Source of the DNA: Phenylobacterium sp.
Lineage (GTDB): Bacteria; Pseudomonadota; Alphaproteobacteria; Caulobacterales; Caulobacteraceae
Length of the DNA: 64,000 bases
Direction: 5' to 3'
Assembly: GCF_013911965.1 (NCBI RefSeq)
Contig: NZ_JACESE010000007.1
Location: 124,001-188,000, forward strand
Part shown: positions 37,189 through 54,417 of the stretch, piece by piece
Layout of the letters: every line of letters starts with the position of its first letter
Position numbering within the stretch: position 1 is the stretch's first letter
Notes under the pieces: generated by a model
What the model was told of the DNA's origin: nothing
Database searches by the model: none
Seen by the model: only the letters and a program-made list of their open reading frames with translations
Position numbers and translations under genes: made by a program

Positions 37189-37192
37189 GCCG

Positions 37193-38731: not shown

Positions 38732-39993
38732 CACGCCGGCGGCGCCTTGGGCAGGGCGGCGAACAGCCGGTCGAGGTCGTTCATGTCGTTGAAGACGGAC
38801 AGCGAGACGCGGAACCGATTGCGCGAGACGGTGATCCGCACGTCCTTCTCGCGCAGGAGCGGGCCGAGCTTGCCGTAGGCGTCCTTCAGCGCGAAGGCGA
38901 CGAGCGGCGTTGGGCTTCCCATCGGCGTCAGCGGTTCGTAGCCGCGGCCGCGCAGCTCGGTCTGCACGGCGTCCGCCAGGGGCTGCCGCCAGGCCTGGAT
39001 GCGGGCGACGTCGAGCTGGCGGATCCAGGGCAGGGTGGTGGCGAGCTGCACCACGCCCGTCCACGAGGTCGTGCCCATGGCGAAGTAGCCCTCCGCCGTC
39101 TCCGAAGCGGCGTAGTCGGCCACCGTCTCGCCGGGCGGATCGTAGGGCAGGACGTGGGAGGTGAAGCGCGAGACCTGATGATAGCCCCACCACGGCCGCG
39201 CGATTTCGGAGAGCACCTCCTTGCGCGCATAGAGGAAGCCCAGGCCGAAGTCGCCCATCAGCCACTTGTAGGAAGAGGTCGCCGCGAAATCGACGCCCGC
39301 CGCCCGCAGGTCCAGCGGCACAGTCCCGGCGGCGTGGGCCAGGTCGACATAGACGTAGGCCCCGTGGGCGTGAGCCAGGTCGCAGACCGCCTTGAGGTCG
39401 TGCTGAAAGCCGTTGACCGTGGAGACGGCGCTGATCGCCACCAGCTTCGTCTTGCCGTCGATGGCCGCGGCCATGGCGTCCATGTCGGTCTTGCCCTCAG
39501 GCGTCATGGGTAGGGTGACGACGTCCATGCCGGCTTCGCCGAGGCGGCCATAGGTGTAGTAGGAGCCGAAGAAGTGCAGGGCGTCGGTGACGATCCGACC
39601 GCCCGAGGCCGGGATGCCGAGCGCCTGCAGGACCAGGTTCTCGCCCATGGTCGTGGACTGGATGACGGCGATCTCGTCGGCCGTCCCGCCCACCAGGGCG
39701 GCGAAGTTCTCCACCATGGTCTTTTGGAGTTCGCCCATGTCGAGGTCGGGCGCACCCTTCGCCCGGGTCTTGTAGGCGAGGTAGTCGGAAAGCGCCGCCT
39801 TCGCCGCCAATGGCATCGGATGCGTGGCGCCGGAATCCAGATAGACGAAGGGCATCTCGGCGAAGGCCGACCTGGCGGGAAGCTCCGTCGGCAGGGGCGG
39901 CGGCGACGCCGTCTCGGCGCGGGCGGCGCCGGCGCCCAGGGCCGGCGTGGCGGCCGCAGCGGCGACCAGGGCGCGTCGGGTGAAGTCCATCAC
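38731..39993 (-). CDS. Tat-exported class V PLP-dependent enzyme (isopenicillin N epimerase/NifS-like fold)
   Basis: 420 aa. Signal MMDFTRRALVAAAAATPALG with twin Arg, as expected for a cofactor-carrying protein exported by Tat. Class V fold-type I core: FVYLDSGATHPMP, STTMGENLV, AVSTVNGFQHDLKAV, VDLAHAAGT and the PLP lysine K243 in SSYKWLMGDFGLGFLY. Members include epimerases, lyases and desulfurases, so the reaction is open; amino acid epimerisation or lysis in the periplasm is possible. A GCAT-N5-ATGC site lies 79 bp upstream. Coupled to the S10 gene downstream. Confidence 0.88.
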   Translation of the reverse strand: MMDFTRRALVAAAAATPALGAGAARAETASPPPLPTELPARSAFAEMPFVYLDSGATHPMPLAAKAALSDYLAYKTRAKGAPDLDMGELQKTMVENFAALVGGTADEIAVIQSTTMGENLVLQALGIPASGGRIVTDALHFFGSYYTYGRLGEAGMDVVTLPMTPEGKTDMDAMAAAIDGKTKLVAISAVSTVNGFQHDLKAVCDLAHAHGAYVYVDLAHAAGTVPLDLRAAGVDFAATSSYKWLMGDFGLGFLYARKEVLSEIARPWWGYHQVSRFTSHVLPYDPPGETVADYAASETAEGYFAMGTTSWTGVVQLATTLPWIRQLDVARIQAWRQPLADAVQTELRGRGYEPLTPMGSPTPLVAFALKDAYGKLGPLLREKDVRITVSRNRFRVSLSVFNDMNDLDRLFAALPKAPPA

Positions 39994-40071
39994 ACCTCCT
40001 CGGACGGCGGCAGCTTAGCCGCCGGCCACGGGATTATCCTTGCGGAGTGGATCGCGCGGCGTCCGCAGCCG

Positions 40072-40084
40072 GCATTGTTTATGC
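40072..40084. promoter_or_regulatory. GCAT-N5-ATGC inverted repeat, site 1
   Basis: GCAT-TGTTT-ATGC in the gap between the Lrp gene stop (40129) and the class V PLP gene start (39993). First of six identical-arm sites in this locus; candidate Lrp operator. Confidence 0.65.
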
Positions 40085-40128
40085 GCCAGCCCGGAAGGCG
40101 CCGCGGCGTATGATCTGGCGATCGGCGT

Positions 40129-40611
40129 CTATCGGAATTGACGCGCCCGCAGCGGTACGGCCGTCGTGCTCTTGGACTCGGCCAGGGTCACGATCGAGCG
40201 CACGTCGACAACACCGGGCAGCTTCAGCAGCACCGCGAAGATGAAGTCCTGATACCAGGAGACGTCCGGGGCCATGATCTTCAGCATGGCGTCCATCTCG
40301 CCGAACACGGTCCAGCATTCCAGGATCTCCGGGATGTTGTGGATCGCCTTGTAGAAGTTTTCCCGCTCCTCCTCGGTCAGGGTCGTCATCTTCACCTGGG
40401 CGAAGATCTGCATGGTGAAGCCGAGCTTCTGGTGGTCGACGATGGCCACCACGGCCTTGATGTACCCTTCCTCGCGCAGGCGCTGGATGCGCCGCCAGCA
40501 GGGCGATTGCGACAGGCCGACGCGCTCGGCGAGCTCGGCGGTCGACAGCGAAGCGTCGCGCTGCATCAGGTCGAGGATCTTGATGTCGATCGCGTCGAGA
40601 GTGAACGGCAT
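40129..40611 (-). CDS. Lrp/AsnC-family regulator of the peptide-utilisation locus
   Basis: 160 aa. HTH (DIKILDLMQRDASLSTAELAERVGLSQSPCWRRIQRLREEGYI in parts) and RAM domain (ECWTVFGEMDAMLKIMAPDVSWYQDFI in parts), typical of Lrp/AsnC. It stands between oppositely directed gene sets. Inverted repeats GCAT-N5-ATGC occur 28 bp before its own start, before the aminotransferase it diverges from, and at four further promoters of the block, so it is the best candidate for the shared regulator (inference). It is distinct in sequence from the Lrp protein at 36727. Confidence 0.93.
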   Translation of the reverse strand: MPFTLDAIDIKILDLMQRDASLSTAELAERVGLSQSPCWRRIQRLREEGYIKAVVAIVDHQKLGFTMQIFAQVKMTTLTEEERENFYKAIHNIPEILECWTVFGEMDAMLKIMAPDVSWYQDFIFAVLLKLPGVVDVRSIVTLAESKSTTAVPLRARQFR

Positions 40612-40638
40612 ACCTTATGTGCCTCCCAGCTTAGAGAT

Positions 40639-40651
40639 GCATAGCGAATGC
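40639..40651. promoter_or_regulatory. GCAT-N5-ATGC inverted repeat, site 2
   Basis: GCAT-AGCGA-ATGC, 28 bp upstream of the Lrp/AsnC start at 40611. Position suits autoregulation. Confidence 0.65.
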
Positions 40652-40706
40652 GCGCCCCGCCGGTGTCAAGCACCACAAAGACAAGAAAAACCCTGAGCCC
40701 GGATTA

Positions 40707-40719
40707 GCATCGCCTATGC
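40707..40719. promoter_or_regulatory. GCAT-N5-ATGC inverted repeat, site 3
   Basis: GCAT-CGCCT-ATGC, extended by one pair to AGCAT/ATGCT. It lies 53 bp before the aminotransferase start and 68 bp (about 6.5 helical turns) from site 2. Confidence 0.65.
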
Positions 40720-40771
40720 TCTCCAGCGGGCGTTCTGCGCTGCGAGGCATGCAGTAGGGACGGGGGACGGC

Positions 40772-41941
40772 GTGACATTTTCCAGCGCGGCGCAGGGCCG
40801 CGAAGCATCCCCCCGTCCGGCCGACAGCTATCCTCGCTGGGTGCGCTCGGTGCTGGCGCGGGTCGCCGCCGAGCCCAAGGCGGCCCTTCTCTTCGACTCC
40901 ACCATTCGCGAGCCCACCGAGCTCCTGGCGCAGGTCGTCCGCAAGGCCTTCGCCGGTCCGGTGACGGACCGGTACGAGAGCGTCTTCTCGGCCGGCAACC
41001 GCTATGTCGCCCGCGCGGTCGCGTCGCGCCACGGCGTGTCGCCGGGCCAGGTCATCGCCGCCACCGGCGCGACCTCGGCCATGGCCATGGCCATCCGCGC
41101 CTTCGTGCGGCCAGGCGACCACGTGGTGGTCGAGACGCCATGCTTCGACCTGCTGCCGCAACTGGCGCAGGACGCCGGGGCGCGAATTTCCTATGTCAGC
41201 CGCCGTCCGCCCGCCTTCGGGGTCGACCCTGGCGAGCTGGCCGCGGCCATCGGCCCGGACACCCGGCTGATCATCCTGACCCAGTTGCACAACCCCTCGG
41301 GCGCCGCGCTCGACGAGGGCGCTCTGGAGGCGCTGGCGCGCGTGGCCCGCCAGGCGCGCACGCCGATCCTGGTGGACGAGGTCTATGCCGACTTCATCGG
41401 CGGCGGGGCGAGCGCCCTGCGTGTGGCGCCGGAATTCATCGTCGCCGGCAGCCTGACCAAGGTCCAGGGGCTGTTCGCCCTGCGCTGCGGCTGGCTCGTG
41501 GCCGCGCCGGAGCATGTCGCGCGCATCGAGGCGGCCAATCCGCAGGGCGATCTGGGGGTCTCCAAGCTGGCCCATGCCGTCGCCGCCCTGGTGCTGGAGG
41601 CGCCCGAGCCGTTCGAAGCCCACTGGCGCGGCGTGCTGGCCGAGACGCGCCCCGTCATGGCGCGCCACGCCCAGGCGATGATCGACGACGGCCTGCTGGC
41701 CGGCGATCTCCCGCCCTATGGCTGCATGTACTTTCCGCAGGTGGTCGGCGTCTCCGACACCCGGTCACTGGCTGAAGAGCTTTGGTCCAAGCACGGACTG
41801 GTGGTCGCCCCGGGCGAATACTTCGGCCTTCCGGGCCACATCCGCGTCGGCTTCGGGGGCGACGCCGGGGAACTCGATGCCGGCCTTGCCCGGTTGCACG
41901 CCGCCCTGGCTTCGCGGCGGCCGCGTTCGGCGCATAGCTGA
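40772..41941 (+). CDS. Class I/II PLP-dependent aminotransferase
   Basis: 389 aa fold-type I aminotransferase: ATGATSAMAMAIRAF, TQLHNPSGAALDEG, VDEVYADF, PLP lysine K230 in GSLTKVQGLFALRCGW, and the arginine region GHIRVGFGG near the end. No signal peptide, so cytoplasmic. The start is GTG with a G-rich stretch upstream. It is the first plus-strand gene of the Lrp-controlled block and precedes the large TonB receptor. The amino acid used cannot be read. Confidence 0.9.
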   Translation: MTFSSAAQGREASPRPADSYPRWVRSVLARVAAEPKAALLFDSTIREPTELLAQVVRKAFAGPVTDRYESVFSAGNRYVARAVASRHGVSPGQVIAATGATSAMAMAIRAFVRPGDHVVVETPCFDLLPQLAQDAGARISYVSRRPPAFGVDPGELAAAIGPDTRLIILTQLHNPSGAALDEGALEALARVARQARTPILVDEVYADFIGGGASALRVAPEFIVAGSLTKVQGLFALRCGWLVAAPEHVARIEAANPQGDLGVSKLAHAVAALVLEAPEPFEAHWRGVLAETRPVMARHAQAMIDDGLLAGDLPPYGCMYFPQVVGVSDTRSLAEELWSKHGLVVAPGEYFGLPGHIRVGFGGDAGELDAGLARLHAALASRRPRSAHS

Positions 41942-41944
41942 TGC
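41932..41944. promoter_or_regulatory. GCAT-N5-ATGC inverted repeat, site 4
   Basis: GCAT-AGCTG-ATGC, overlapping the aminotransferase stop and 170 bp upstream of the TonB receptor start. It continues into a second inverted repeat, GATGC-GTCT-GCATC (41940-41953). Confidence 0.6.
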
Positions 41945-42113
41945 GTCTGCATCACGACCATTGCATGACCAATCTGTGTCGGGCAGGCCAAGGGCGTGAC
42001 TACGCAAAGAAATGCCGGTCGGACATGACTAGCCTTTCAGGCAAGCCAAGCCCGCGGAGTCGGGCGGCTATTGGGGTTTTGGGCAGTCATCGACAGAGCA
42101 GTTGGGGGATCAG

Positions 42114-45074
42114 ATGGTTGGAAGTTCAGTGAAGGGGCGCCTGTTCGCCTCCAGCGTGATTGGCGGGGCGGCCCTGATGGCGACCTTCGCCGCGGCTCCG
42201 GCCAGCGCCCAGACGCCGGCGGCGGCCGAGCCGCAGGTGGTGGACGAGATCGTCGTCACCGGTTCGCGCATCCGGCGCGCCGAGACGACCACCGAGGCTC
42301 CGGTGACGGTCATCGACGCCCAGTCGATTTCCGAGCGCGGCTTCGTCTCCCCGGGTCAGGCGCTGAACGAAATGACCGCGGTCGTCCCGTCCTATCCGCA
42401 GGCTGACGGTTCGGGGGCGAGCTCGGGCAGCGGTCAGCAGTTCCCCAACCTCTTCGGCCTCGGCCCGGGCCGGACGCTGACCCTGGTGAACGGCCGCCGC
42501 TTCGTGACGTCCTCGCAAGGGCTGGGCGACCGGGTGGTGGACACCAACATCATCCCGACCGGCCTGATCGAGCGGATCGACGTGGTGCAGGCCGGCGGCG
42601 CCGCCGTCTACGGCTCCGACGCCATCGCCGGCGTGATCAACTACGTCCTGAAGGACAACTTCGAGGGGCTGGAACTCGACGCCTACTACGGCATCTCCTC
42701 GCGTGAGGACTATCCGCAGGGCAGCCTGCGCGTCACCGGCGGCAAGAACTTCCTGGACGACCGCGCCAACGTCGCGGTGAACCTGGAGTGGTCGAAGACC
42801 GACTCCCTGCTGAACTACGATCGCCCGATCTCCAACCTGGGCCGCCTGACGGCGACCAATCCGGCGAACACGGGGCCGAACGACGGCATCCCGGCGGTGA
42901 CCGAGGTGTTCAACGCCCGCTTCTGGGAGTTCAACTACAACGGCCTGCTGTTCACGCCCGCGCCGGCGCCCCGTCCGGATTTCATCTTCAGCCGGGCCGG
43001 CGTGCCGCAGCAGTTCAGCGCCGATGGCCAGTCGCTGATCCCCTACGACATCGGGACGCGGTTTGGCGTGCCCTTCGCGTCCGGCGGAGAGGGCTGGGAC
43101 TATCGCGAGATCTCCTCGTTGCGCACGGGCGTCGAGCGCTGGAGCGGCAATGTCATCGGGCATGTCGACCTGACCGACCGCATCCGCCTCTTCGGCGAGG
43201 CCATGTACGCCGAGGTCGAGGGGCGAAATCCGTACGGGACCTACTTCAGCACCACGATCTTGAACGGCGCGGCCACCGGCTTCGGCGCCATCCCGATCAG
43301 CCGCACCAACCCCTACCTCTCCGACTCGGTCCGTGCGGCGCTCGGCCCGGGCGGTCCGCCGCTGTACCTTTCCAAGGTCTGGGGCGATGACCTGCTGCCG
43401 ACGCGGGAAGTCCTCACCAACACCGAGACCTATCGCGTCCTGGCCGGCGTCGAGGGCGACTTCGACATCGGCGAACGCAACTTCTACTGGAGCGTCTCGG
43501 CCAGCCGCGGCCAGACCGAGGGCAAGGAAGAAGGCTGGGGCGTCATCACGGCCAACTTCAACAAGGCGGTCAACGCCGTGCGCGACAGCGCCGGCAACAT
43601 CGTCTGCGCGGTCAACGCCGACGCCGATCCGACCAACAACGACGCCGCCTGCGCGCCGCTGAACCCGTTCGGGGTGGGCAACGCCAGCTTCGAAGCGCGC
43701 AACTACGTGACCACGCCGATCGGCGAAGAGTTCCTGAACACCCAGGATGACTATCTCGCCACCCTGGGCGGCGAACTGTTCGACCTGCCGGCCGGCCCGG
43801 CCCAGTTCAGCGTGGCCTTCGAGCGCCGCGAAGAGTCGGCCAAGTTCACGCCGTCGGAAGCCGAGCAGCGCGGCCTCACGGGTTCGGGTGTGGCCACGGT
43901 CGCCCAGTCGGCCAGCTACAACACCAACGAATGGTCGGCCGAGGTGCTGGTGCCCGTCCTCGGCGGCGACTTCAGCCTGCCGTTCGCGCAGTCGGTCGAA
44001 CTGAACGGCGCCTATCGCTGGGTCGATCACTCCATCGCCGGCGAAGAGACCGTCTGGGGCGCGGGCCTGAAGTGGGAGGTCGTCGACGGCCTGACCTTCC
44101 GCGCCTCGAAGAGCCGCAACTTCCGTGCGCCGACGCTCGAGCAGCTGTTCGCACCCACCCGCGTGGCCCTGGGCTCCGTCGGCCAGGATCCCTGCGACTT
44201 CCGCTATATCAACGCCGGCCCGGCGCCTTCGGTGCGGCAGGCCAACTGCCAGGCCGAATGGACGGCGAACGGCTATGGCGACCTGACGCAGCACCAGAAC
44301 GACTCGACCAACTTCTCTTCGGCCAACGTCACCACCGGCGGCAACCGGGACCTGCAGAACGAGGTCTCCGACACGGTCACCTACGGCGTCGTCTTCCAGC
44401 CGAGCTTCGTTCCGGGCCTGACGATCGTCATCGACCGGGTCGAGGTGGATCTGACCGACGGTCTCTCGGCCTTCGCGCCGGAGAACTTCATGGCGACCTG
44501 CTATGACTCCACGGTTCGTCCGGACGAGATCTGCGCCACCTTCACCCGCAATGCGCAAGGCGATGTGATCTCGGCCCTGAACACCACCTTCAACGCCGGC
44601 CAGATCACCTATCGGGGTGAGGTCTACAACATCAACTACGCCTTCCCGCTGGGCCAGTTCTTCGGCGATCGCGACCTGGGCTCGATCGAGCTCAACGCCG
44701 AGGCCACCCACACGGCCAAGCTCGAGACCTCCGTCACGGGCTTCGACCTGACGCGGACCGACAATACGGTGGCGATCCCGGACTGGAGCGGCCGCTTCGA
44801 CGCCCGCTACCGCCGCGGTCCGCTGCGGGCGACCTACACGCTGAACTACCTCTCCGAGGTGCTCAGCGCCCAGGGCGACACCATCGAACAGCGCGAGCAC
44901 TGGCTGATCGACGCCAACATCCGCCACAGCCTGTCGGCCTCCTACGACTTCGGGACCTACGTGCTGCGCGGCGGGGTGAACAACTTCACCGACGAGGAGC
45001 CGTCCTACCCGACCCGCACCCACGGCGACATCATCGGTCGCTACTACTTCATGGGTGTGACCGCGCGGTTCTAA
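42114..45074 (+). CDS. Large TonB-dependent outer membrane receptor
   Basis: 986 aa. Signal ending AAAPASAQ, TonB-box-like VVDEIVVTGSRIRR at about residues 36-49, plug domain (ALNEMTAVVPSYPQ, GRTLTLVNGRRFV, VDTNIIPTGLIERIDVVQAGGAAVYGSDAIAGVINYVL in parts), then a long beta-barrel ending in YYFMGVTARF. The VDTNIIP...AAVYGSDAIAGVIN wording is that of the large receptors of Xanthomonads, Sphingomonads and Caulobacterales, many next to peptidases. The ATG at 42114 has GGGGG 7 nt upstream. It is followed by a strong terminator just before the cyclodeaminase genes. Substrate inferred to be a peptide. Confidence 0.95.
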   Translation: MVGSSVKGRLFASSVIGGAALMATFAAAPASAQTPAAAEPQVVDEIVVTGSRIRRAETTTEAPVTVIDAQSISERGFVSPGQALNEMTAVVPSYPQADGSGASSGSGQQFPNLFGLGPGRTLTLVNGRRFVTSSQGLGDRVVDTNIIPTGLIERIDVVQAGGAAVYGSDAIAGVINYVLKDNFEGLELDAYYGISSREDYPQGSLRVTGGKNFLDDRANVAVNLEWSKTDSLLNYDRPISNLGRLTATNPANTGPNDGIPAVTEVFNARFWEFNYNGLLFTPAPAPRPDFIFSRAGVPQQFSADGQSLIPYDIGTRFGVPFASGGEGWDYREISSLRTGVERWSGNVIGHVDLTDRIRLFGEAMYAEVEGRNPYGTYFSTTILNGAATGFGAIPISRTNPYLSDSVRAALGPGGPPLYLSKVWGDDLLPTREVLTNTETYRVLAGVEGDFDIGERNFYWSVSASRGQTEGKEEGWGVITANFNKAVNAVRDSAGNIVCAVNADADPTNNDAACAPLNPFGVGNASFEARNYVTTPIGEEFLNTQDDYLATLGGELFDLPAGPAQFSVAFERREESAKFTPSEAEQRGLTGSGVATVAQSASYNTNEWSAEVLVPVLGGDFSLPFAQSVELNGAYRWVDHSIAGEETVWGAGLKWEVVDGLTFRASKSRNFRAPTLEQLFAPTRVALGSVGQDPCDFRYINAGPAPSVRQANCQAEWTANGYGDLTQHQNDSTNFSSANVTTGGNRDLQNEVSDTVTYGVVFQPSFVPGLTIVIDRVEVDLTDGLSAFAPENFMATCYDSTVRPDEICATFTRNAQGDVISALNTTFNAGQITYRGEVYNINYAFPLGQFFGDRDLGSIELNAEATHTAKLETSVTGFDLTRTDNTVAIPDWSGRFDARYRRGPLRATYTLNYLSEVLSAQGDTIEQREHWLIDANIRHSLSASYDFGTYVLRGGVNNFTDEEPSYPTRTHGDIIGRYYFMGVTARF

Positions 45075-45118
45075 GAAGGAACGCAGGAGCCGGGTCCGTT
45101 CGCGCCCGGCTTCCCGCA

Positions 45119-45162
45119 GGGCGGCGCCTCCACCCCACGGCGGCGCCGCCCACGTCTTTTTT
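45119..45162 (+). terminator. Strong intrinsic terminator directly before the cyclodeaminase genes
   Basis: Perfect 10-bp stem GGGCGGCGCC (45119-45128) / GGCGCCGCCC (45142-45151), 13-nt loop, and six T at 45157-45162. The ribosome binding site GAGAGGGGG and the ATG at 45177 follow at once, leaving no room for a promoter after it. A weaker hairpin (AGCCGGG 45088-45094 / CCCGGCT 45105-45111) precedes it. Confidence 0.85.
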
Positions 45163-45176
45163 GAGAGGGGGCCTCG

Positions 45177-46118
45177 ATGACCGGCGCCGTGACCACGGCC
45201 GGCCTGCGGATCTGGGACGCCCAGGCGGTCCGCTCGGCCCTGACCTACGACGCGGCCATCCCGGTTGTGCGCCAGGCCATGGCGGCGCTCTCCTCGGGCG
45301 AGGTGCGCCAGCTTCTGCGCAGCTTCATCGGGCTGGGCGAGGGGCGGACCTTCGCCATCATGCCTGCCGCCCTCGACCGTCCGGCCGTCTTCGGCGCCAA
45401 GCTGGTCTCCGTCTTCGCCGACGGTCGCGGCCGGAAGAGCCATGAGGGGCTGGTCGTGCTCTTCTGCCTGGCCGACGCCGGCGAGGTGACCGCCATCCGC
45501 ACGGCCGCGGCCAGCGCGGCGGCGACCGACGCCCTGGCTCGCACGGGCGCGGCGCGTCTGGCCATTCTCGGGCTCGGTCGCCAGGCCGAGGCCCACATCG
45601 AGGCCATCTCCAAGGTCCGCGATCTGCGCGAGGTGCGCGTCTGGGGGCGCGACGCCGCCCGCGCCGGCGCCTTCGCAGACGCCGTCCGCAGCCGCACCGG
45701 CCTTTCGGTGACCGCCTATGCCGGCGCCCGCGAGGCCGTGGCCGGGGCCGACATCGTCTGCACGGTCAGCGCTGCGGCCGATCCGATCCTGGAAGGCGGC
45801 TGGGTCTCGCCCGGCGCCCACGTCAACCTGGTCGGCTCCAGCGGTCCGGCCCAGGCCGAGGCGGATGCCGAGCTGGTGGCGATGTCCCGCTTCATCGTCG
45901 ACCATCGCGAGCACGTCCTGGTCCATGGCGGCGAGTTCCTTCGCGCCAAGGCCGCCGGTCGGGTGGACGACGCCCACATCGCGGGTGAGATCGGCGAGGT
46001 CTATGCCCGCCGGCTCCCTGGCCGCACCTCGGCCGAGGAGATCACGGTCTACAAGTCGCTGGGTCACGCCGTGCAGGACCTGGCCTGCGTGGCATGGCTC
46101 GACGGGCGGAGGGACTGA
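45177..46118 (+). CDS. Ornithine cyclodeaminase / mu-crystallin family protein (copy 1)
   Basis: 313 aa. Rossmann oxidoreductase: FGAKLVSV with K75, RTAAASAAATDALAR, NAD(P) loop LAILGLGRQAEAH, TVSAAADPIL, and the C-terminal EEITVYKSLGHAVQDLA motif. The family covers ornithine cyclodeaminase, alanine dehydrogenase and ketimine reductases. The catalytic Asp region of true ornithine cyclodeaminase (VGxDxPGK) reads VGSSGPAQAE, so that reaction is unlikely; imine/ketimine reduction is more plausible (inference). It overlaps its paralogue by TGATG. Confidence 0.88.
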   Translation: MTGAVTTAGLRIWDAQAVRSALTYDAAIPVVRQAMAALSSGEVRQLLRSFIGLGEGRTFAIMPAALDRPAVFGAKLVSVFADGRGRKSHEGLVVLFCLADAGEVTAIRTAAASAAATDALARTGAARLAILGLGRQAEAHIEAISKVRDLREVRVWGRDAARAGAFADAVRSRTGLSVTAYAGAREAVAGADIVCTVSAAADPILEGGWVSPGAHVNLVGSSGPAQAEADAELVAMSRFIVDHREHVLVHGGEFLRAKAAGRVDDAHIAGEIGEVYARRLPGRTSAEEITVYKSLGHAVQDLACVAWLDGRRD

Positions 46119-47065
46119 TGCGCGTCATCGATCGCGACGAGGTGCGTGCGCGCCTGACCTATGAGGTCTGCATCCCGCTCGTGCGCCAGGCGATGATCGC
46201 CTTCTCGCGCGGCCAGACGCGCCAGCTGCTGCGTTCGATCATCCCCCTGGGCGAGGGGCGCGCCTTCGGCGTCATGCCGGGCGCGCTCGGGGAGCGCGCC
46301 GTCTTCGGCGCCAAGCTGGTCAGCGTCTATCCGGAGAACTTCGCGAAGGGGCGGCAGTCGCACCAGGGGGTGGTGGTCCTGTTCGACGGCGAGCACGGTC
46401 GCCCCGTCTGCGTCGCCCATGCGGGCGAGATCACCGCCATCCGCACCGCGGCCGCCAGCGCCGTGGCCACCGACGCGCTCGCCCGCCCGGACGCCACACG
46501 GCTGGCCATTCTCGGCTATGGCGAGCAGGCCCACACCCACGCCCACGCCATCGCCAAGGTGCGGCCGCTGTCGTCCATCACCGTCTGGGGGCGCTCGCCC
46601 GATCGCGCCTCGGCCTTCGCCGCGCGACTCTGGCACGAGCTTGGCGTCTGTACGCGGCCCTATGTGACCGCGCAGGAAGCGGTCGCGGACGCCGACATCA
46701 TCTGCACCGTCACCGGCGCCGCCGAGCCGATCCTGATGGGGCGCTGGGTGAGGCCCGGCGCGCATGTGAATCTCGTCGGCTCCAGCTATGCCGGACCGGC
46801 GGAGGCCGACGAAGACCTGGTGGCGGGCTCGCGCTTCATCGCCGACAGCCGCGAGGGCGTCCTGGCCCAGGGGGCGGAGTTCCTGAACGCCAAGGCGAGC
46901 GGCCGGGTGGACGACGACCATGTCGTCGGCGAAATCGGTCAGGTCCTGGCGGGCGACCTTGCCGGTCGGCGTTCGGCGGAGGAGATCACCGTCTACAAGT
47001 CACTCGGCCACATCGTTCAGGACCTGGCGGCCGCCGAGGCCCTCTATCGCAGCGGGGAGAGCTGA
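46118..47065 (+). CDS. Ornithine cyclodeaminase / mu-crystallin family protein (copy 2)
   Basis: 315 aa, clearly a tandem paralogue of the preceding gene: RQLLRSIIPLGEGRAFGVMPGAL, VFGAKLVSVYP, EITAIRTAAASAVATDALARP, LAILGYGEQAHTHA and EEITVYKSLGHIVQDLA align without large gaps (segments shortened here). The Asp site reads VGSSYAGPAEAD. Probably works with copy 1, as a heterodimer or on a related substrate (inference). The TGATG overlap fixes the start; the amidohydrolase begins at once after the stop with GTG. Confidence 0.88.
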   Translation: MRVIDRDEVRARLTYEVCIPLVRQAMIAFSRGQTRQLLRSIIPLGEGRAFGVMPGALGERAVFGAKLVSVYPENFAKGRQSHQGVVVLFDGEHGRPVCVAHAGEITAIRTAAASAVATDALARPDATRLAILGYGEQAHTHAHAIAKVRPLSSITVWGRSPDRASAFAARLWHELGVCTRPYVTAQEAVADADIICTVTGAAEPILMGRWVRPGAHVNLVGSSYAGPAEADEDLVAGSRFIADSREGVLAQGAEFLNAKASGRVDDDHVVGEIGQVLAGDLAGRRSAEEITVYKSLGHIVQDLAAAEALYRSGES

Positions 47066-48439
47066 GTGCTCCGCCTATCGCCCCTGGCCCTGTCGCTGGC
47101 CGCCCTGTCCCTCTGCGCCTGCGCCACGCAAGGTCCGGCGCCGGCGCCGGCCGCCGCGGCCGGCGAGCCGCCCAAGGCGCTGACCCAGAGCGACCCGCCG
47201 TTCGCCTCCAGCTACAGGCCGGCCGACGCGCCGCCGGTGGCCATCGTCAACGCCGTCATCCTGACCGGCGCGGGTGAGAAGATCGCCAGGGGCGCCCTGA
47301 TCGTGCGCGACGGGCGCATCGCCGAGGTCGGCGCGGACGTGACGCCGCCGGCCGGCATGCGGGTGATCGACGCCGGCGGACGCTTTCTGACGCCGGGCAT
47401 CGTCGACCCCCACGCCCATATCGGCGTCGGCTCCAGCCCGACCGAGGCCAATGGCGACGGCTCCAACGAGTCCGGCCCCAATCCTGGCGGCGTCTGGGTG
47501 GAGCATTCGGTCTGGCCGCAGGATCCGATGTTCGAACGCGCCCTGCAGGCGGGCGTCACCACCATCCAGATTCTCCCGGGCTCGGCCAATCTGTTCAACG
47601 GCCGGACGGTGGTCGTGAAGAACGTGCCGGCGCTTTCGCCCCAGCAGATGAAGTTCCCCGGGGCGCCCTACGGCGTGAAGATCGCCTGCGGCGAGAACCC
47701 CACCGGCGGTCCGGGCAAGCCCAGCACCCGCGCCGGCTCCATGCAGGCCTATCGAAAGACGTGGGCCGCGGCGCGCGCCTACGCCGCCAAGCCCGGCGCC
47801 GAGGATCCGGCGATGGAGACCCTGGCCGGTGCGCTCAAGGGCGATATCAAGGTCCACATCCACTGCTACCGCGCCGACGAGATGCTGCAGATGATCGAGC
47901 TCTCCCACGAGTTCGGCTTCAAGATCGCGGCCTTCCACCACGCGCTGGAGGCCTTCAAGATCGCGCCCAGGCTGGTCGAGGAGGACATCGCCGTCGTCAC
48001 CTGGGCCGGCGACTGGTTCGGCTACAAGATGGAGGCCTTCGACTCCATCGTGGAGAACGCCGCCTTCGTCGAGGCCGCGGGCGGGGTCGTGGCCATGCAC
48101 TCCGACAATGTCGCCCTGATGCAGCATCTGAACCAGGAGGCTGCCCGCGCGCTCGCCGCCGGGCAGGCGGCGGGCCTGCCGGTGACCGAGGAAGACGCCA
48201 TCGCCTGGGTGACCTCCCAGCCGGCCAAGATCCTCGGCGTCGACGGCGAAACCGGCTCGCTGGAACCCGGCAAGGCGGCGGACCTCGTGCTGTGGGACAA
48301 GGATCCGCTCAGCGTCTATTCGCGCGCCGATCTGGTCTTCATCGACGGCGTTCTGCTCTACGACCGCAGCGCCGCGCCCGAGACGCCGCGTTCGGACTTC
48401 GAGCTCGGCGTCCGCAAGCCGCCGGAGTTCCAGCCGTGA
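47066..48439 (+). CDS. Exported lipoprotein amidohydrolase (imidazolonepropionase-like/dipeptidase type)
   Basis: 457 aa. Signal with LSLCAC lipobox (lipidation Cys near 17-19), so membrane-anchored in the periplasm. Amidohydrolase barrel with metal ligands: HAH in DPHAHIG, candidate Lys in YGVKIACGEN, His in VHIHCYRADEM and AFHHALEAF, Asp in AMHSDN. The C-terminal LEPGKAADLVLWDKDPL is the family ending. Related exported proteins of Caulobacter cleave Xaa-Pro or Xaa-Arg/Lys dipeptides. GTG start directly after the previous stop; overlaps the next gene by GTGA. Confidence 0.88.
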   Translation: MLRLSPLALSLAALSLCACATQGPAPAPAAAAGEPPKALTQSDPPFASSYRPADAPPVAIVNAVILTGAGEKIARGALIVRDGRIAEVGADVTPPAGMRVIDAGGRFLTPGIVDPHAHIGVGSSPTEANGDGSNESGPNPGGVWVEHSVWPQDPMFERALQAGVTTIQILPGSANLFNGRTVVVKNVPALSPQQMKFPGAPYGVKIACGENPTGGPGKPSTRAGSMQAYRKTWAAARAYAAKPGAEDPAMETLAGALKGDIKVHIHCYRADEMLQMIELSHEFGFKIAAFHHALEAFKIAPRLVEEDIAVVTWAGDWFGYKMEAFDSIVENAAFVEAAGGVVAMHSDNVALMQHLNQEAARALAAGQAAGLPVTEEDAIAWVTSQPAKILGVDGETGSLEPGKAADLVLWDKDPLSVYSRADLVFIDGVLLYDRSAAPETPRSDFELGVRKPPEFQP

Positions 48440-49725
48440 TCGCCCGCCTGCTGGCTGTACTGATCCTCGCCGTCGCGGCGCCGGCCGCCGCCGAGACCCT
48501 GGCCATCGTCGATGCGCGCCTCGTCACCCTCGGGCCGGCCGGCGACATCGCCAAGGGGACGATCGTCCTGCGCGACGGGCGCATCGCCGCCCTGGGGCGC
48601 GACGTGCGGCCGCCGGCGGGGGCGAGGATCATCGAGGGCGCAGGTCTGACCGTCACCCCCGGCCTCGTCGCGACCGTCACGCCGCTCGGCCTGAACGACC
48701 TGATCGGCAGCGGCTGGCCGGGCCTGACCTCCAGCGCCGACCGCCTCAGCGCGGGTTTCAGCATTGCGGCCGACTACAACCCCGACAACGTCCAGATCCC
48801 CGAGGCGCGGGTGGAGGGCGTCACCCGCGCCGTCGTCACGCCAAATCCGCCGCCGGCCTCCAAGAGCGGCGGCCGCAAGGCGTTCGCCGGCCAGGCCGCC
48901 CTGGTCAGCCTGGGCGAGGGGCGGCCGCCGATCCTGGACGCCGCCGTCGCCGTCGTCGCTTCCGGCGGGGACGCCGGCGCAGCTGCGGCCGGGGGCGGGC
49001 GAGGGGCCTGGCGCACCCTGGTGTCCGAACAGCTCGCGCTCGCCCGGCTCCACGCCCGCACGCCGGGCGCCGTCACCCCCGACAGGCTGGAGGCGCTCTC
49101 CCTCTCGCAGGCCGATCTGGAAGCGCTCAGGCCCGTCGTCGCCGGTCGCGCGCCCTTGCTCGTGGAGGCCAACCGCGCGGCGGACATCGCCATGGTGCTG
49201 GACCTGGCGCGCGCCGAGAAGGTCCGGGTGATCCTGTCGGGCGCCGCAGACGCCTGGCGGCTGGCCGACGAAATCGCCGCCGCCGGCGTTCCCGTCGTGC
49301 TCGACGCCGAGGAGAACCAGGCCTTCACCTTCGAGACGGTCAACGCGACCTACGAGAACGCCGCCATCCTGCACGCCGCCGGCGTCAAGATCGCCTTCAA
49401 GCCCGGCATCGCCCGCATCGTCTTCCTGATCCGCACGCCGCGGTTCCTGGCCGGCCGCACCGTCCGCTACGGCCTGCCGTGGGAGGCCGCCCTGGCGGCG
49501 ATCACCCGCAACCCGGCGGAGATGTTCGGCTATGCCGACGAAGCCGGAACCCTGGAGGTGGGCAAGGCCGCCGACCTCGTCGTCTGGAGCGGCGATCCGC
49601 TGGAGACCCGCACGGTGGCCCGCCACGTCGTCATCGGCGGCGAAGTCCAGCCTCTGACCTCGCGCAGCCGCCTGCTGCGTGACCGCTACATCGAGGATGT
49701 GCGCGCAGCCGCCGCCGCACGTTAG
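48436..49725 (+). CDS. Amidohydrolase-fold protein lacking metal ligands (probable pseudoenzyme)
   Basis: 429 aa with signal peptide (LILAVAAPAAAET). N-terminal composite beta domain and C-terminal GTLEVGKAADLVVWSGDPLE are as in amidohydrolases, but the HxH site reads TPGLVATVTPLG and the only three His (in LHART, LHAAG and RHVVI) are not at ligand positions; the usual Lys, two His and Asp also cannot be found. It follows an intact homologue with a 4-bp overlap. A partner or scaffold role is inference; a catalytically altered enzyme is the alternative. Confidence 0.82.
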   Translation: MIARLLAVLILAVAAPAAAETLAIVDARLVTLGPAGDIAKGTIVLRDGRIAALGRDVRPPAGARIIEGAGLTVTPGLVATVTPLGLNDLIGSGWPGLTSSADRLSAGFSIAADYNPDNVQIPEARVEGVTRAVVTPNPPPASKSGGRKAFAGQAALVSLGEGRPPILDAAVAVVASGGDAGAAAAGGGRGAWRTLVSEQLALARLHARTPGAVTPDRLEALSLSQADLEALRPVVAGRAPLLVEANRAADIAMVLDLARAEKVRVILSGAADAWRLADEIAAAGVPVVLDAEENQAFTFETVNATYENAAILHAAGVKIAFKPGIARIVFLIRTPRFLAGRTVRYGLPWEAALAAITRNPAEMFGYADEAGTLEVGKAADLVVWSGDPLETRTVARHVVIGGEVQPLTSRSRLLRDRYIEDVRAAAAAR

Positions 49726-49738
49726 AGGGACCTGCATC

Positions 49739-51211
49739 ATGAGACTGACCCGCCGCGCCCTCACAGGCGGCCTGACGCTCGGCCTGGCGACCACGAGCCT
49801 CGCCGTCGGGCGCGCCTGGTCGGCCGAGCCCCTGGCGCCTGAACCGGCCGTGATCCGAGGCGAGGCGAAGGCCGGCGGCCGGACGGTGGCCTACCGCGCC
49901 GTGGCCGCCGAGACGGTGCTGCCCGGTCCGGACGGAGCGCCGGAGGCGACCCTCTTCTCCACCGCCTATTTCGCCGAGGGCGAGGATGCGGCGGCGCGGC
50001 CGGTGACCTTCTTCTTCAACGGCGGTCCGGGCGCCGCCACCATCGACCTGCGCGAGGGCCTGGCGCCGGTCCACACCCGCAACGCTGCGGGCCGGGGCTT
50101 CCGGCTGGCCGACAATCCCGACACCCTGATCGACGCCAGCGACCTCGTCTTCGTCGATCCCGGCGGCATCGGCTACAGCCGCTTTCTGAAGCCTGGCGTC
50201 GCCGCCCGCTACTGGGGCGTCGACGAGGACGCCCGCGCCGTGGCCGATTTCATCGCCATCTGGCTGAAGGCCAACGGCCGCGAGGCCTCGCCGAAGTACC
50301 TGGTGGGCGAGAGCTATGCCGGGATCCGCGTCGGCATGGTCGCCGAGCGGATGGCGCGGCTGCCGGAACCGGTCCGTTTCGACGGCGTCGTCCTGGTTTC
50401 GCCCTCCACCGGCACGCGGGGCGCGAAGGATCTCGCCGCCGCCGCCGATCCGGCCGTCCGCGCCCTGCCGAGCCAGGCGGCGACGGCGCTCTACTACGGC
50501 AAGTCGGCCCATGCGGGCGCAGAGCCGGCCGTCCTGGCCGAGGCTGCGCGCGGCTGGGCCGAGGGCGACTACGCCCGCGCGCTTGCGAAAGGCGAAACGA
50601 TCTCCCCGGCTCTGAGCGCCAAGGTGGCGCGCGAACTCTCCGGCTATCTGGGCCTGCCGGAGGCCCAGATCCTCGCCGCAGATCTGCGGATTCCCATGGA
50701 CCGCTTCATCCGCGAACTCCTGGCCGAACGGGAGGCGCGTATCGGCCTGTCGGACGCCCGCGCCCACGCGCCGTACTTCGTCACCGACGTGCAGCGGCCG
50801 CCCTATGACGATCCGTCCACCTCGCCCTATACGCTGACCTACAACCTGACCGAGGCGGTGGAGCATCTCTATCGTCAGGTCTTCGGCTACAGGCCGCTGG
50901 GCCCCTATGTGCGGCTCTCCTACGAGGCCAACGGCGGCTGGAACCACGAGGTCGAAGGCGGCCCCCGCGCCATGCCGCTCGTCTTCAAGGAGCTGATGGC
51001 GGCCGACCCGGACCTGCGGGTCAGCCTGATGCTGGGCTGCTACGACCTCAACATTCCCTATGCCGGGCCGCTGAACGAGTATCTGGCGGCCGACCTGCCG
51101 AGCGACCGGTTCGCCCACCGCCTGTTCGAGGCGGGCCACTCCATCTTCTCCGACCCCGTCGGCCGGCGCCAGGCGAGCGCCGACCTGCGGACCTTCGTTC
51201 AGGCGGGGTGA
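49739..51211 (+). CDS. Exported S10 serine carboxypeptidase-like protein (paralogue B)
   Basis: 490 aa. Signal MRLTRRALTGGLTLGLATTS with twin Arg, Tat-like. FNGGPGAATIDLREG at the oxyanion loop (usual GSS replaced by GAA), nucleophile S192 in VGESYAGIRVG, Asp in GCYDLNIPYAG, His in EAGHSIFSD. The frame is open to 49679, but the ATG at 49739 gives the signal peptide. Starts 13 bp after the amidohydrolase; last plus-strand gene before the convergent paralogue C. Confidence 0.9.
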   Translation: MRLTRRALTGGLTLGLATTSLAVGRAWSAEPLAPEPAVIRGEAKAGGRTVAYRAVAAETVLPGPDGAPEATLFSTAYFAEGEDAAARPVTFFFNGGPGAATIDLREGLAPVHTRNAAGRGFRLADNPDTLIDASDLVFVDPGGIGYSRFLKPGVAARYWGVDEDARAVADFIAIWLKANGREASPKYLVGESYAGIRVGMVAERMARLPEPVRFDGVVLVSPSTGTRGAKDLAAAADPAVRALPSQAATALYYGKSAHAGAEPAVLAEAARGWAEGDYARALAKGETISPALSAKVARELSGYLGLPEAQILAADLRIPMDRFIRELLAEREARIGLSDARAHAPYFVTDVQRPPYDDPSTSPYTLTYNLTEAVEHLYRQVFGYRPLGPYVRLSYEANGGWNHEVEGGPRAMPLVFKELMAADPDLRVSLMLGCYDLNIPYAGPLNEYLAADLPSDRFAHRLFEAGHSIFSDPVGRRQASADLRTFVQAG

Positions 51212-51223
51212 GACGGGCCGGCC

Positions 51224-52705
51224 TCAGGCCGGCTTGCCGCCGGTCACGAAGACGCGGATGTCGCCGTTGAAGGCCTTCAGCGTCCGCTCGTCGGTATAGG
51301 CCATGTGGCCGCCGACATATTCGCGCTGGATCACCCGGTCGCGGGGATAGTCGCTGCGGGCGACCATGTAGCGGGCCGGTCCCACCGTGGTGGTCAGGTC
51401 GTAGACGCCGGTTCCGATCATGAGCCGGAAGTCCGGATTGGCCGCGAACGCCTTGGAGATCTCGGCCGGATAGTCGAAGTCGAGGAACGGTCCGCCGGGG
51501 CCGAGCGTGCCGTTCCATTCCCAGTCGCCGGTCTCCGGGGCCGAGGGGCGATACTCGGCCGCCGACCAGGGGACGTTCAGGAACCGGGCGTAGTGCTCCA
51601 GCATCATCGGCTGGATGGCCTGCATGGGCTTGGCCGAAGGATCTGGGATCCGCTCTCCGTCCGCCGGGACGGGCCCCACATAGCGGGCGTCGTATGTCCC
51701 CAGCCGCAAGCCCTTGTCCTTCAGGAGCTCGCGGGCGAAGGCGATCTTGGTGATGGCGAGATCGTTGGCCAGGTAGTAGTCGGCGCCGACGCCGGTCAGA
51801 GCTTGCAGCCGGGCCGCGATCTGCGCCCGTTCGGCCTGCGGCAGGTCGTAGCCGCGCACCAGGGCCATCAGATAGGGGCCCATGCCCCAGGTCCAGGCCT
51901 CGTCGATGATCTCGCCCACCGGCCGGTCGCTGCGTTCGGCCCGGCCGTGATAGGCGGCGATGGCGGCGAGCGCGGTGAGGTTGGTGGCGTAGGCCAGGGC
52001 GTTCTTCGCCCGCTGGCTGGTCTCGATCATGTTGACCGCCTGGCCGAACAGGAAGACGCCGTCGAGCGGCGCAGTCTCGGCCAGCAGGCCCGCCATCATC
52101 GCCGCCCGGATGGTGCCGTAGCTCTCGCCCAGCACGTATTTCGGCGAGGCCTCGCGGCCGTTGGCCCTGCTCCAGGCGAGGACGAAATCCGACACCGCTC
52201 GCGCGTCGCCATTGACGGAATAGACATCTTCCCGGCTGCCGCCGGCCAGGACGCGGGAGAAGCCCGTCTCGGGCGGGTCGATCATGACGATGTCCGCCAC
52301 GTCCAGAACGCACTCGGCGTTGTCCACCGTCTGCGGCGGGGGTTCGGGCGCGTCGAGGTCTTGAGCTACCAGGATCCGCTTCGGTCCGAGCGCGACCATG
52401 TGCAGGGTGGCCGAGGAACTGCTGGGCCCGCCGTTGAAGGCGAACAGGACCGGGCGACGGGCCTTGTCCACGCCCTCGCGGACATAGGAGGTGGTGACGA
52501 AACGCACCGCCGGCGCACCGGCCGGGTTCGTCACTACGGTCTCGGCCACCGTGGCGACGTAGCGCACGCGCTCGCCGTTGAAGACGCCCTGATGACGCGT
52601 CACGAAGGGCGGTGCGGCCGGCTGGGCCATGACCCTTCCCGCCGCCGCCAGGCCTGCGGCCGCCGTGGCCGCGGTGAGCACTTGCCGCTTGGTGATCAAC
52701 GCCAT
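51224..52705 (-). CDS. Exported S10 serine carboxypeptidase-like protein (paralogue C)
   Basis: 493 aa. Signal MALITKRQVLTAATAAAGLA with Lys-Arg in place of twin Arg. FNGGPSSSSATLHMVALGP at the oxyanion loop (GPG to GPS), nucleophile S195 in LGESYGTIRAA, Asp in GTGVYDLTTT, His in YVGGHMAYTDE. GGGGGCGG stands before the ATG at 52705; the open frame to 52798 is not used. Divergent from paralogue D, with two GCAT-N5-ATGC sites in between, so both are probably under the same regulator. Confidence 0.9.
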   Translation of the reverse strand: MALITKRQVLTAATAAAGLAAAGRVMAQPAAPPFVTRHQGVFNGERVRYVATVAETVVTNPAGAPAVRFVTTSYVREGVDKARRPVLFAFNGGPSSSSATLHMVALGPKRILVAQDLDAPEPPPQTVDNAECVLDVADIVMIDPPETGFSRVLAGGSREDVYSVNGDARAVSDFVLAWSRANGREASPKYVLGESYGTIRAAMMAGLLAETAPLDGVFLFGQAVNMIETSQRAKNALAYATNLTALAAIAAYHGRAERSDRPVGEIIDEAWTWGMGPYLMALVRGYDLPQAERAQIAARLQALTGVGADYYLANDLAITKIAFARELLKDKGLRLGTYDARYVGPVPADGERIPDPSAKPMQAIQPMMLEHYARFLNVPWSAAEYRPSAPETGDWEWNGTLGPGGPFLDFDYPAEISKAFAANPDFRLMIGTGVYDLTTTVGPARYMVARSDYPRDRVIQREYVGGHMAYTDERTLKAFNGDIRVFVTGGKPA

Positions 52706-52794
52706 ATCCGCCCCCAATTCTGTCCGTCTGCGCCAGATTAGCGGCGGCGGCCCGGCATTTCTTTTCGAACAGCCGCGTCGCATCGGCGGGGCTC

Positions 52795-52807
52795 GCATAG
52801 CCTATGC
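52795..52807. promoter_or_regulatory. GCAT-N5-ATGC inverted repeat, site 5
   Basis: GCAT-AGCCT-ATGC between divergent S10 genes, 90 bp before the minus-strand start (52705) and about 135 bp before the plus-strand start (52942). Confidence 0.65.
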
Positions 52808-52826
52808 CGGACCCTCGCGCAGTCGT

Positions 52827-52839
52827 GCATCAGCCATGC
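52827..52839. promoter_or_regulatory. GCAT-N5-ATGC inverted repeat, site 6
   Basis: GCAT-CAGCC-ATGC, 32 bp (three helical turns) from site 5, so both sites face the same side of the helix, as expected for an oligomeric Lrp protein. Confidence 0.65.
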
Positions 52840-52941
52840 GGCCGATCGGAGGCGCCGCTGGCAGTTCGAATAGAAATGCCTGGTCTGGAAGGTAGGATGA
52901 TGCGCAGTGGGTTGTCGTCTCGGGCGGGGGAAGTTCGAACC

Positions 52942-54417
52942 ATGTCGATGCGCAGTTTCGCCCTGGCCGCGGCGCTTGTCCTGGTCGGACCGGGGGCCAT
53001 CGCATCCGCCGAGCCCGCGGCCGCCGTGGCCGCTCGCGCGCCGCAGGTCGCCGAAACGCGTCATACCGGCCGCTTCAACGGCAAGGAGGTGCGCTACCGC
53101 GCGCTCGTCTCGGAGACCTTCCTGACCGATGAGGCCGGCGCGCCGGCCGCCTCGGTGGTGACGACGGCCTATCTGCGCGAAGGCGCGGACGCCGCCTCCC
53201 GCCCGATCATGTTCATCTTCAACGGCGGTCCCGGCGCCTCGACCACGCCGCTGCACTTCGGCGCCTTCGGCCCGAAACGGCGGCTGGGCGAGGGGGCGGC
53301 CCAGGTGATGGTCGACAATCCCGACAGTCCGCTGGACGCCGTCGACCTCGTCTTCATCGATCCCGTCGGCACCGGCTACAGCCGGCCGCTGCCGGGGCAT
53401 GAGGGCCAGCCGTACTGGAGCCGCTCAGGCGACGCGGCCTCGGTGTCCAAAGTCATCGAGACCTGGCTCGCCGCCAACGGCCGCGAGGCCTCGCCGCGCT
53501 ACCTGCTCGGCCAGAGCTACGGCACCACCCGCGCCGCCCTGATCGTGAAGCTGGGTGAGGTGAAGTTCGACGGCGTCCTGCTGTTCGCCCTGGTGGCGAG
53601 CCCCGAGGGACTGGAGATGCCCTATGTCACCAGCCTGCCGAGCTATGCGGCGGTCGCCTGGTGGCACCGGAAGATCGACCGCGACGGCCGCACCGCTCAG
53701 CAGATCTATGACGAGGCGGTGGAGTTCGCGCGAACCGACTATGTCAGCGCGCTGATCCGCGGCGCCAGCCTGCCTGCGGCGGAGAAGCGCCGGATCGCGC
53801 AGCGCATGTCGGACCTGATCGGCCTGCCCGCCGACTATATCGAGTCCAAGGATCTGCGGCTGAAGAACGAGGACTTCATGTTCCAGCTTCTGGCCGACCA
53901 GGGGCTGCGCACGGGCCAGCTCGACGGCCGCGCCACGCGTCGCCTGGATGCGCCGGCCCAGCGCCCGCCCTATGACGACCCCGGCCTCAACTTCAGCCTG
54001 GAACCGCCGCCGGCCGCACCGCCGGCGCCGCCGAAGGTCGAGGGCGTGGCGGCGACCAGCGACGAGCCGCCGGCGCTGGAGGCCTACTACCGCCAGACGC
54101 TCGGTTTCGAGAGCGCCGAGACCTACAACTCCCTGAACCTGGACGTGAACTCGGCCTGGGACTTCGAGGGCGGGGGCGACGCCAACGGCTTCCTGGGCCA
54201 GGCCATGCAGGCCGATCCGAACCTGCGCCTCTTCTGGGTCTCGGGCCTCTACGACCTGACCACGCCCTCCTATCGGGGCCGCTACATCCTCGACCAGTCG
54301 GGCGTCCCGCCCGAGCGCCTGGTCGCCGCCCAGTTTCCCGGCGGGCATTCGGTCTTCACGGAGGAGACCAACCGAAAAGCCCTGGCCGACGCCGTCCGCG
54401 CCTTCGTGCGGCCGTGA
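52942..54417 (+). CDS. Exported S10 serine carboxypeptidase-like protein (paralogue D, GQSYG variant)
   Basis: 491 aa. Sec signal MSMRSFALAAALVLVGPGAI. FNGGPGASTTPLHFGAFGPK, nucleophile S192 in LGQSYGTTRAA, Asp in SGLYDLTTPSY, His in FPGGHSVFTEE. The residue before the nucleophile is Gln instead of the Glu of the family GESY motif; in carboxypeptidase Y that Glu helps to bind the substrate C-terminal carboxylate. A Pro/Ala-rich insertion lies near residues 355-370. Start chosen for the signal peptide, with GGGGGAAG upstream; the ATG at 52897 is possible. Ends just before the amidohydrolase gene. Confidence 0.9.
   Translation: MSMRSFALAAALVLVGPGAIASAEPAAAVAARAPQVAETRHTGRFNGKEVRYRALVSETFLTDEAGAPAASVVTTAYLREGADAASRPIMFIFNGGPGASTTPLHFGAFGPKRRLGEGAAQVMVDNPDSPLDAVDLVFIDPVGTGYSRPLPGHEGQPYWSRSGDAASVSKVIETWLAANGREASPRYLLGQSYGTTRAALIVKLGEVKFDGVLLFALVASPEGLEMPYVTSLPSYAAVAWWHRKIDRDGRTAQQIYDEAVEFARTDYVSALIRGASLPAAEKRRIAQRMSDLIGLPADYIESKDLRLKNEDFMFQLLADQGLRTGQLDGRATRRLDAPAQRPPYDDPGLNFSLEPPPAAPPAPPKVEGVAATSDEPPALEAYYRQTLGFESAETYNSLNLDVNSAWDFEGGGDANGFLGQAMQADPNLRLFWVSGLYDLTTPSYRGRYILDQSGVPPERLVAAQFPGGHSVFTEETNRKALADAVRAFVRP

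Follow-up and report, generated by a model that had tools for sequence, protein, structure and literature searches.

A candidate Lrp-type operator, GCAT-N5-ATGC, at a fixed distance from a rare core promoter in a Phenylobacterium gene cluster

Binding sites of Lrp-family regulators have been characterised as degenerate and difficult to foresee from sequence (for archaeal proteins) and as lying two or three helical turns apart, with activating sites tightly placed (PMC2995911). Three-turn spacing with the DNA wound round an octamer has been reported (PMC10201364), as have sites that recur with periods of 7-8, 18 or 30-31 bp, along with local, divergently encoded regulators (PMC8707732). We analyzed a 64,000-nucleotide stretch of Phenylobacterium sp. 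(assembly GCF_013911965.1, contig NZ_JACESE010000007.1, positions 124,001 to 188,000; hereafter the window), in which copies of the inverted repeat GCAT-N5-ATGC lie around a gene for a regulator of the Lrp/AsnC family, here called lrp. From sequence comparison, the repeat is probably the operator of this regulator, a predicted local Lrp-type activator that would repress its own gene and govern a peptide-scavenging regulon.

BkdR, MdeR and PutR are likewise small local Lrp/AsnC-type proteins encoded divergently from a target, and BkdR is a described activator (PMC8707732). The window lrp gene, too, is divergent from or adjoins its predicted targets. The three proteins differ from it in their targets, and their descriptions in the accessible sections of that paper include neither a sharp operator nor a fixed distance to a private core promoter. 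BarR of Sulfolobales is alike in that it binds between its own gene and a divergently oriented aminotransferase gene, at semi-palindromic sites of 15 bp that are spaced by three turns (spacers of 27-29 bp), with the DNA wrapped round an octamer; it is unlike the present system in its archaeal basal machinery, its beta-alanine effector and its several sites of mixed spacing (PMC10201364). The string GCATNNNNNATGC was absent from the papers searched, and the titles listed for Lrp in combination with Caulobacter, with Alphaproteobacteria, with TonB receptors or with Phenylobacterium included nothing on this system; most subscription journals lay outside both searches. The E. coli Lrp consensus, YAGHAWATTWTDCTR, is like the window operator a short dyad, and its outer half-site bases may fall at the same separation; E. 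coli Lrp is unlike the regulator described here in being a global regulator with degenerate sites and another arm sequence. CRP-type class I promoters are similar in that the activator is centred at about -72 or is displaced upstream by at least one turn, keeping to that face of the DNA. CRP is an unrelated protein, however, and a contact with polymerase is hypothetical here.

The regulator gene and the elements assigned to its own promoter are as follows; operators are listed without strand throughout.

40129..40611, minus strand: Lrp/AsnC-family regulator gene (lrp), 160 amino acids, with Pfam HTH_AsnC-type and AsnC_trans_reg domains above cut-off
40639..40651: operator GCAT-N5-ATGC, predicted lrp autoregulatory site and predicted proximal (about -72) site of the aminotransferase promoter
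40664..40669, minus strand: TTGACA, predicted -35 of lrp, set by the fixed distance of TTGAC from the operator, which would lie over the predicted -10

The product scores 67.0 bits with PF13404 (cut-off 27) and 60.7 bits with PF01037 (cut-off 25). It reaches no named NCBIfam equivalog for Lrp or AsnC (best PRK11169, 117 bits against a cut-off of 233); the protein is related to E. coli-type Lrp and is not classed as one. Orthologues with 69-89% identity (E 1e-50 or better) were found in 32 of 100 other same-genus genomes searched. The operator stands 26-28 bp ahead of the lrp start codon and is exact in 31 of 32 distinct upstream sequences, with one mismatch in the remaining one (L074). TTGAC, read towards lrp, occurs 13 bp past the operator in 30 of the 32. 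When 3,328 combinations of arm and spacer were ranked, GCAT with spacer 5 came first both in this lrp set (32/32, L074 being counted through its receptor operator) and in the upstream regions of the TonB receptor described below (14/25, the other 11 having one mismatch as read from the alignment). In the alignments the lrp operator keeps its centre as well as its arms, as expected if the centre overlaps the -10; in the receptor promoter the centre varies and the arms stay. Several loci (L050, L052, L053, L075, L077 and L084-L087) carry two tandem lrp copies, 76-82% identical to that of the window, each with its own operator, and in several of these loci a further operator lies about 31 bp off, over the start codon of the first copy. 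For a paralogue in the same genome (44% identity), the 1.5 kb examined contains no such site, not even one with a single mismatch.

The comparison of promoters covered 25 loci, namely the window and 24 relatives, mostly labelled Phenylobacterium (some records bear other or wider names, one being Caulobacter segnis FS); P. kunshanense has the orthologous locus (L073). Identical upstream sequences were merged for the promoter alignment; L046-L057, largely repeating L063-L087, were not added; L079, a near copy of L078, was left out of the footprint, narrow-core and relaxed-core counts and kept in the alignments. Conserved columns beyond the operator revealed a second element, a putative core promoter. 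The predicted target genes of the cluster, including two that encode pyridoxal phosphate (PLP) enzymes, and their promoter elements are listed below.

38731..39993, minus strand: class V PLP-dependent enzyme gene, N-terminus twin-arginine-signal-like by eye
40012..40040, minus strand: core promoter, class V PLP gene
40072..40084: class V PLP promoter, operator centred at about -73
40608..40620: aminotransferase promoter, distal operator (GCATACCTTATGT, one mismatch) overlapping the lrp start codon, with AGAAA of the core 63 bp further on
40683..40710, plus strand: core promoter, class I/II aminotransferase
40707..40719: operator copy over the predicted aminotransferase -10, unconserved, role doubtful
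40772..41941, plus strand: class I/II aminotransferase-like gene, true start uncertain
41932..41944: operator, distal (about -104), TonB-receptor promoter
41963..41975: degenerate operator (GCATGACCAATCT, two mismatches), proximal, TonB-receptor promoter, position conserved in the receptor alignment
42007..42035, plus strand: core promoter, TonB receptor
42114..45074, plus strand: TonB-dependent receptor gene
51224..52705, minus strand: S10 carboxypeptidase-like gene
52735..52763, minus strand: core promoter, S10 gene 51224-52705
52795..52807: operator, proximal for the minus-strand and distal for the plus-strand S10 gene
52827..52839: operator, proximal for the plus-strand and distal for the minus-strand S10 gene
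52872..52898, plus strand: core promoter of the S10 gene 52942-54417, first base off the relaxed form
52942..54417, plus strand: S10 carboxypeptidase-like gene

In the predicted target promoters the core reads approximately ARGAWWDDCC-N12/13-TANNNT, and operators precede it by a single step of 31-32 bp or by two such steps, 62-64 bp. Its narrow form, AGAAAWRCC-N11..14-TANNNT, has four matches in the entire genome, each of them in this cluster, before the aminotransferase, the receptor and the two divergent S10 genes; the reversed-pattern control gave no match. The form ARGAWWDDCC-N13-TANNNT also has four genome matches, three of them in the cluster, where it adds the class V PLP promoter, and the fourth elsewhere. 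Since the cluster holds all four narrow and three of the four related matches, we rejected the core as a general promoter class. A relaxed form, RRGAWWDDCC-N11..14-TANNNT, gave five matches in the window, all with the operator in place, and none in the reversed window. Through this relaxed scan a peptidase-like gene preceded by a repeat at 26523 joins the predicted targets. The window thus has six composite promoters, counting that of the plus-strand S10 gene, whose first core base differs.

The distance between operator and core is fixed across the relatives. For the 39 narrow cores in the 25 loci, searched over 16-110 bp, operators with at most one mismatch were found at 63 bp (35), 32 bp (20), 64 bp (2) and 25 bp (1); one narrow core, in L074, has as its sole operator a copy with two mismatches at 32 bp. 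The relaxed scan, which covered only gaps of 26-35 and 57-67 bp, found 60 cores with operators in the 24 relatives, at gaps of 31 (27), 62 (45), 63 (3) and 30 bp (1), and none in the reversed control. Gaps of 31/62 and of 32/63 are the same places, because the two scans count from neighbouring bases. The unit is therefore a pair of operators with a separation of about 31 bp, at least one of them near consensus, followed by an equal step to the core. Setting TANNNT as -12 to -7 predicts start sites in the window near 40717, 42042, 52905, 52728, 40005 and 26601; by hand calculation the predicted centres are then -72 or -73 for the proximal operators and -103 to -105 for the distal operators, so that, as at class I promoters, a helically phased site lies upstream of the -35. 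The pair at 52795 and 52827 is symmetric for the two divergent S10 promoters. When the six window promoters were compared pairwise, the proximal arms agreed at 92% of positions, the core at 70% and the other columns at 34%, a pattern that shared ancestry of whole promoters fails to explain.

The first-pass annotation had reported six copies of the repeat (40072, 40639, 40707, 41932, 52795 and 52827), and all six were found, with perfect 4-bp arms; further copies at 9017 and 26523 bring the window total to eight. Its claim that they cluster beyond chance holds, with a somewhat higher expectation: against its estimate of 0.5 per 64 kb, dinucleotide shuffles of the 64 kb gave a mean of 0.79 and a maximum of 4, and none of 100 shuffles reached 8. 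The genome rate corresponds to about 0.14 sites per 12.8 kb, as against six observed in the 12.8-kb cluster. By a rough codon-based gene caller made for this analysis and used for the window, the genome and the 25 loci, called genes make up 93% of the window; the copies at 26523, 40072, 40639, 40707, 52795 and 52827 are intergenic, that at 9017 lies within a gene, and that at 41932 overlaps the final bases of the aminotransferase open reading frame (ORF), 191 bp upstream of the called start of the TonB receptor. Comparison of orthologous intergenic regions, as that annotation had advised, bore it out: in the 25 loci the motif stands between genes 71 times, where 1.16 were expected (maximum 4 over 100 shuffles). 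Within genes it occurred four times, against 3.8 expected (5 shuffles), plus once at a gene end. The suggestion that site pairs lie near helical multiples fared unevenly: the 32-bp pair at 52795/52827 fits the conserved geometry, whereas the 68-bp pair at 40639/40707 is unconserved, and its half-turn pairing was rejected when it failed to recur in the aligned relatives.

Core and regulator occur together. Within the genus, the narrow core is present in 32 of 33 genomes that have lrp (68 copies) and in 20 of 68 that lack it (26 copies), with 16 and 48 copies, respectively, in the reversed-pattern controls (Mann-Whitney p 3e-13, uncorrected for relatedness). Fifty of the 68 copies, in 32 genomes, lie no more than 20 kb from lrp or the receptor; the 18 located elsewhere amount to about 0.5 per genome, near the rate of 0.4 in genomes without lrp. 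Five lrp-bearing genomes (G156, G159, G172, G123 and G098) have a further narrow-core match, AGAAAAGCC ... GCATAGCAT, away from the lrp locus. The receptor (at least 61% identity, scored among the best 8 first-look candidates per genome) was found in 30 genomes, all with lrp.

We propose that Lrp dimers would bind operators about 31 bp, or three helical turns, apart on the same face of the DNA, with centres at about -72 and -104 in the target promoters, and from there would help RNA polymerase onto the core. The -35 region of this core (approximately AARGAWWDDCC) is unlike TTGAC and hardly occurs outside the regulon. Class I activators work at such upstream positions, and the location of the operators there, ahead of a core whose -35 is poor, makes activation the likelier sense of control. 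At lrp the operator would lie over the predicted -10, at a fixed distance from a TTGAC-type -35, a position that makes repression by Lrp of its own gene likely. The 40639 operator is common to the divergent lrp and aminotransferase genes and would serve both autorepression and activation, just as 52795/52827 would serve two divergent S10 genes. Five of the six repeats noted at first seem to fit this switch. The effector is probably an amino acid or a small peptide. The sixth repeat, at 40707, is probably no activator site, and may be a second, repressing site or due to chance.

The first-pass annotation's idea of a new operator with a local regulon is strongly supported by the sites before lrp and before the same kinds of predicted target in relatives, by their fixed distance from the core and by the co-occurrence of core and lrp. 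What fails is the motif alone as its definition, together with the 68-bp pair; overlooked were the core promoter, the second operators of degenerate sequence and the repeat at 26523. That repeat introduces the following elements.

26523..26535: M61-like gene promoter, operator centred at about -72, absent from the first-pass annotation
26567..26594, plus strand: core promoter, M61-like gene
26617..28323, plus strand: M61-like peptidase gene, HEIAH motif seen by eye

The gene is called M61-like only, since its product scores 20.7 bits (E 0.00059) with PF05299, just under the 22-bit cut-off, and HEIAH was seen in the translation. It is present in 18 of 101 same-genus genomes, 17 of which have lrp. 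On the opposite strand after it lies a minus-strand ORF that resembles a LysR-type regulator by eye (28320-29306).

Outside the genus, Lrp relatives with about 57-65% identity retain the recognition segment GLSQSPCWRR. In several of their loci an exact operator precedes a PLP, aminotransferase, S10, receptor or lrp gene; three Brevundimonas-type loci have the lrp operator at the same position with one mismatch, and a distant metagenome-assembled genome (L106) shows a comparable operator-core layout by eye. GCAT with spacer 5 heads the ranking for the g14 set (6/23 upstream regions, a few of them common to divergent genes) and for a mixed distant set (5/23), and comes second in the pooled distant set (11/114, behind GCGG with spacer 5, 13). 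It was not among the 15 top combinations listed for the Brevundimonas, Sphingomonas and Novosphingobium sets.

Several results weigh against the proposed operator and switch. The genome-wide scan that the first-pass annotation had itself set as a refuting test returned 41 GCAT-N5-ATGC sites in 3,863,399 bp, which is background frequency, so that the motif alone does not define a regulon; 33 of these lie outside the window (25 in genes, 8 intergenic), and no core accompanies any of the 33 at the expected spacing, hence no remote regulon member was found. Likewise, the number of motifs per genome was rejected as a marker of the regulator, with means of 35.4 in the 33 genomes with lrp and 30.8 in the 68 without. 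The 40707 copy has no place in the model. None of 17 M61 orthologues in relatives has an exact site within 300 bp, and among 17 stretches reaching further upstream (three of them under 3 kb), seven contain composites and ten, one of them from a genome without lrp, do not; these orthologues are a weak independent test, as in several relatives the gene follows other genes. In 23 distant loci the composite is nearly missing (one case, reversed control none), and the core has either diverged there or is peculiar to close relatives. Finally, the -35-like element is strongly conserved, which simple activation leaves unexplained. A further reading, which we think possible without favouring it, is a private two-part code in which Lrp operators stand one or two fixed three-turn steps ahead of this dedicated element (approximately AARGAWWDDCC), which would itself be specifically recognised, so that neither half would work alone; the recogniser might be polymerase only when Lrp is docked, an extra contact by the Lrp oligomer, or a further partner.

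Other explanations must be set beside activation and autorepression by Lrp. Lrp proteins both activate and repress and can wrap DNA (PMC2995911, PMC10201364), and the lrp operator itself covers a predicted -10 region, so the same regulator might instead repress its targets until relieved by an effector, with the -72 and -104 operators acting by wrapping or looping. The conserved target operators stand at fixed steps well ahead of a core whose -35 is poor, however, a placement that suits activation better, and only the unconserved 40707 copy overlaps a target core; we regard repression of the targets as unlikely. A similar, slightly stronger doubt attaches to the idea that the core is an ordinary promoter type of the genus and that specificity lies in the operators only. 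Its -10 part does resemble the usual GCTA-type element of Caulobacter, but the four narrow and four related matches in 3.86 Mb place seven of eight in the cluster, two promoters being matched by both forms.

Conservation cannot name the protein that binds, and binding by Lrp is itself a prediction; a different regulator might recognise GCAT-N5-ATGC, lrp being merely one of its targets. This we hold to be very improbable in view of the operator before lrp in 31 of 32 sequences, its presence also before the second lrp copy in tandem loci, the core in 32 of 33 genomes with lrp and near chance in those without, and a dyad length and three-turn spacing that match Lrp habits as described in the accessible literature (PMC2995911, PMC10201364, PMC8707732). 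The genome-wide count at background would suit a chance cluster of a common palindrome, yet for the conserved sites this is refuted by 71 intergenic copies against 1.16 in the 25 loci and by the fixed operator-core distance, and it has next to no probability of accounting for the whole; the sites at 9017 and 40707 may be of chance origin.

Some further elements and genes were recorded. The motif with an identical centre (GCATTACGAATGC) occurs outside the lrp locus in three genomes (L006, the own genome at C5:111800; G151; G148), in a context that resembles a structural RNA gene by eye. The strings AAGAAAAACC and AAAGAAANNCCG were rejected as separate genome-wide elements, having three copies each, of which one and two, respectively, are in the cluster. 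Their three non-cluster loci have, by eye, ParA-like, alkaline-phosphatase/TonB/ExbD-like and superoxide-dismutase/metallophosphoesterase-like ORFs; at L155 (own genome, C11:24691) the AAGAAAAACC copy lies between the alkaline-phosphatase-like and TonB/ExbD-like ORFs. Beside the cluster, at 36681-38416, are two plus-strand ORFs (192 and 383 amino acids) with no Pfam match at E 0.001.

The predicted targets are the TonB receptor, the S10 carboxypeptidases, the PLP enzymes and, through 26523, the M61-like peptidase. The neighbourhood encodes three S10 carboxypeptidase-like proteins in all, and the cluster also encodes two ornithine-cyclodeaminase-like proteins, two amidohydrolases and a further amidohydrolase. 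Such genes suggest a system that takes up and degrades peptides or modified amino acids. Operator, spacing and core are sharp enough for target promoters to be recognised from sequence in two dozen related loci. If activation, which we infer from the positions of the sites, is the correct sense, the locus would offer a clean bacterial system for studying how an Lrp oligomer activates from a fixed distance and uses one and the same site to repress its own gene. The cluster also suggests an uncharacterised pathway of peptide or amino-acid scavenging in Phenylobacterium and its relatives.

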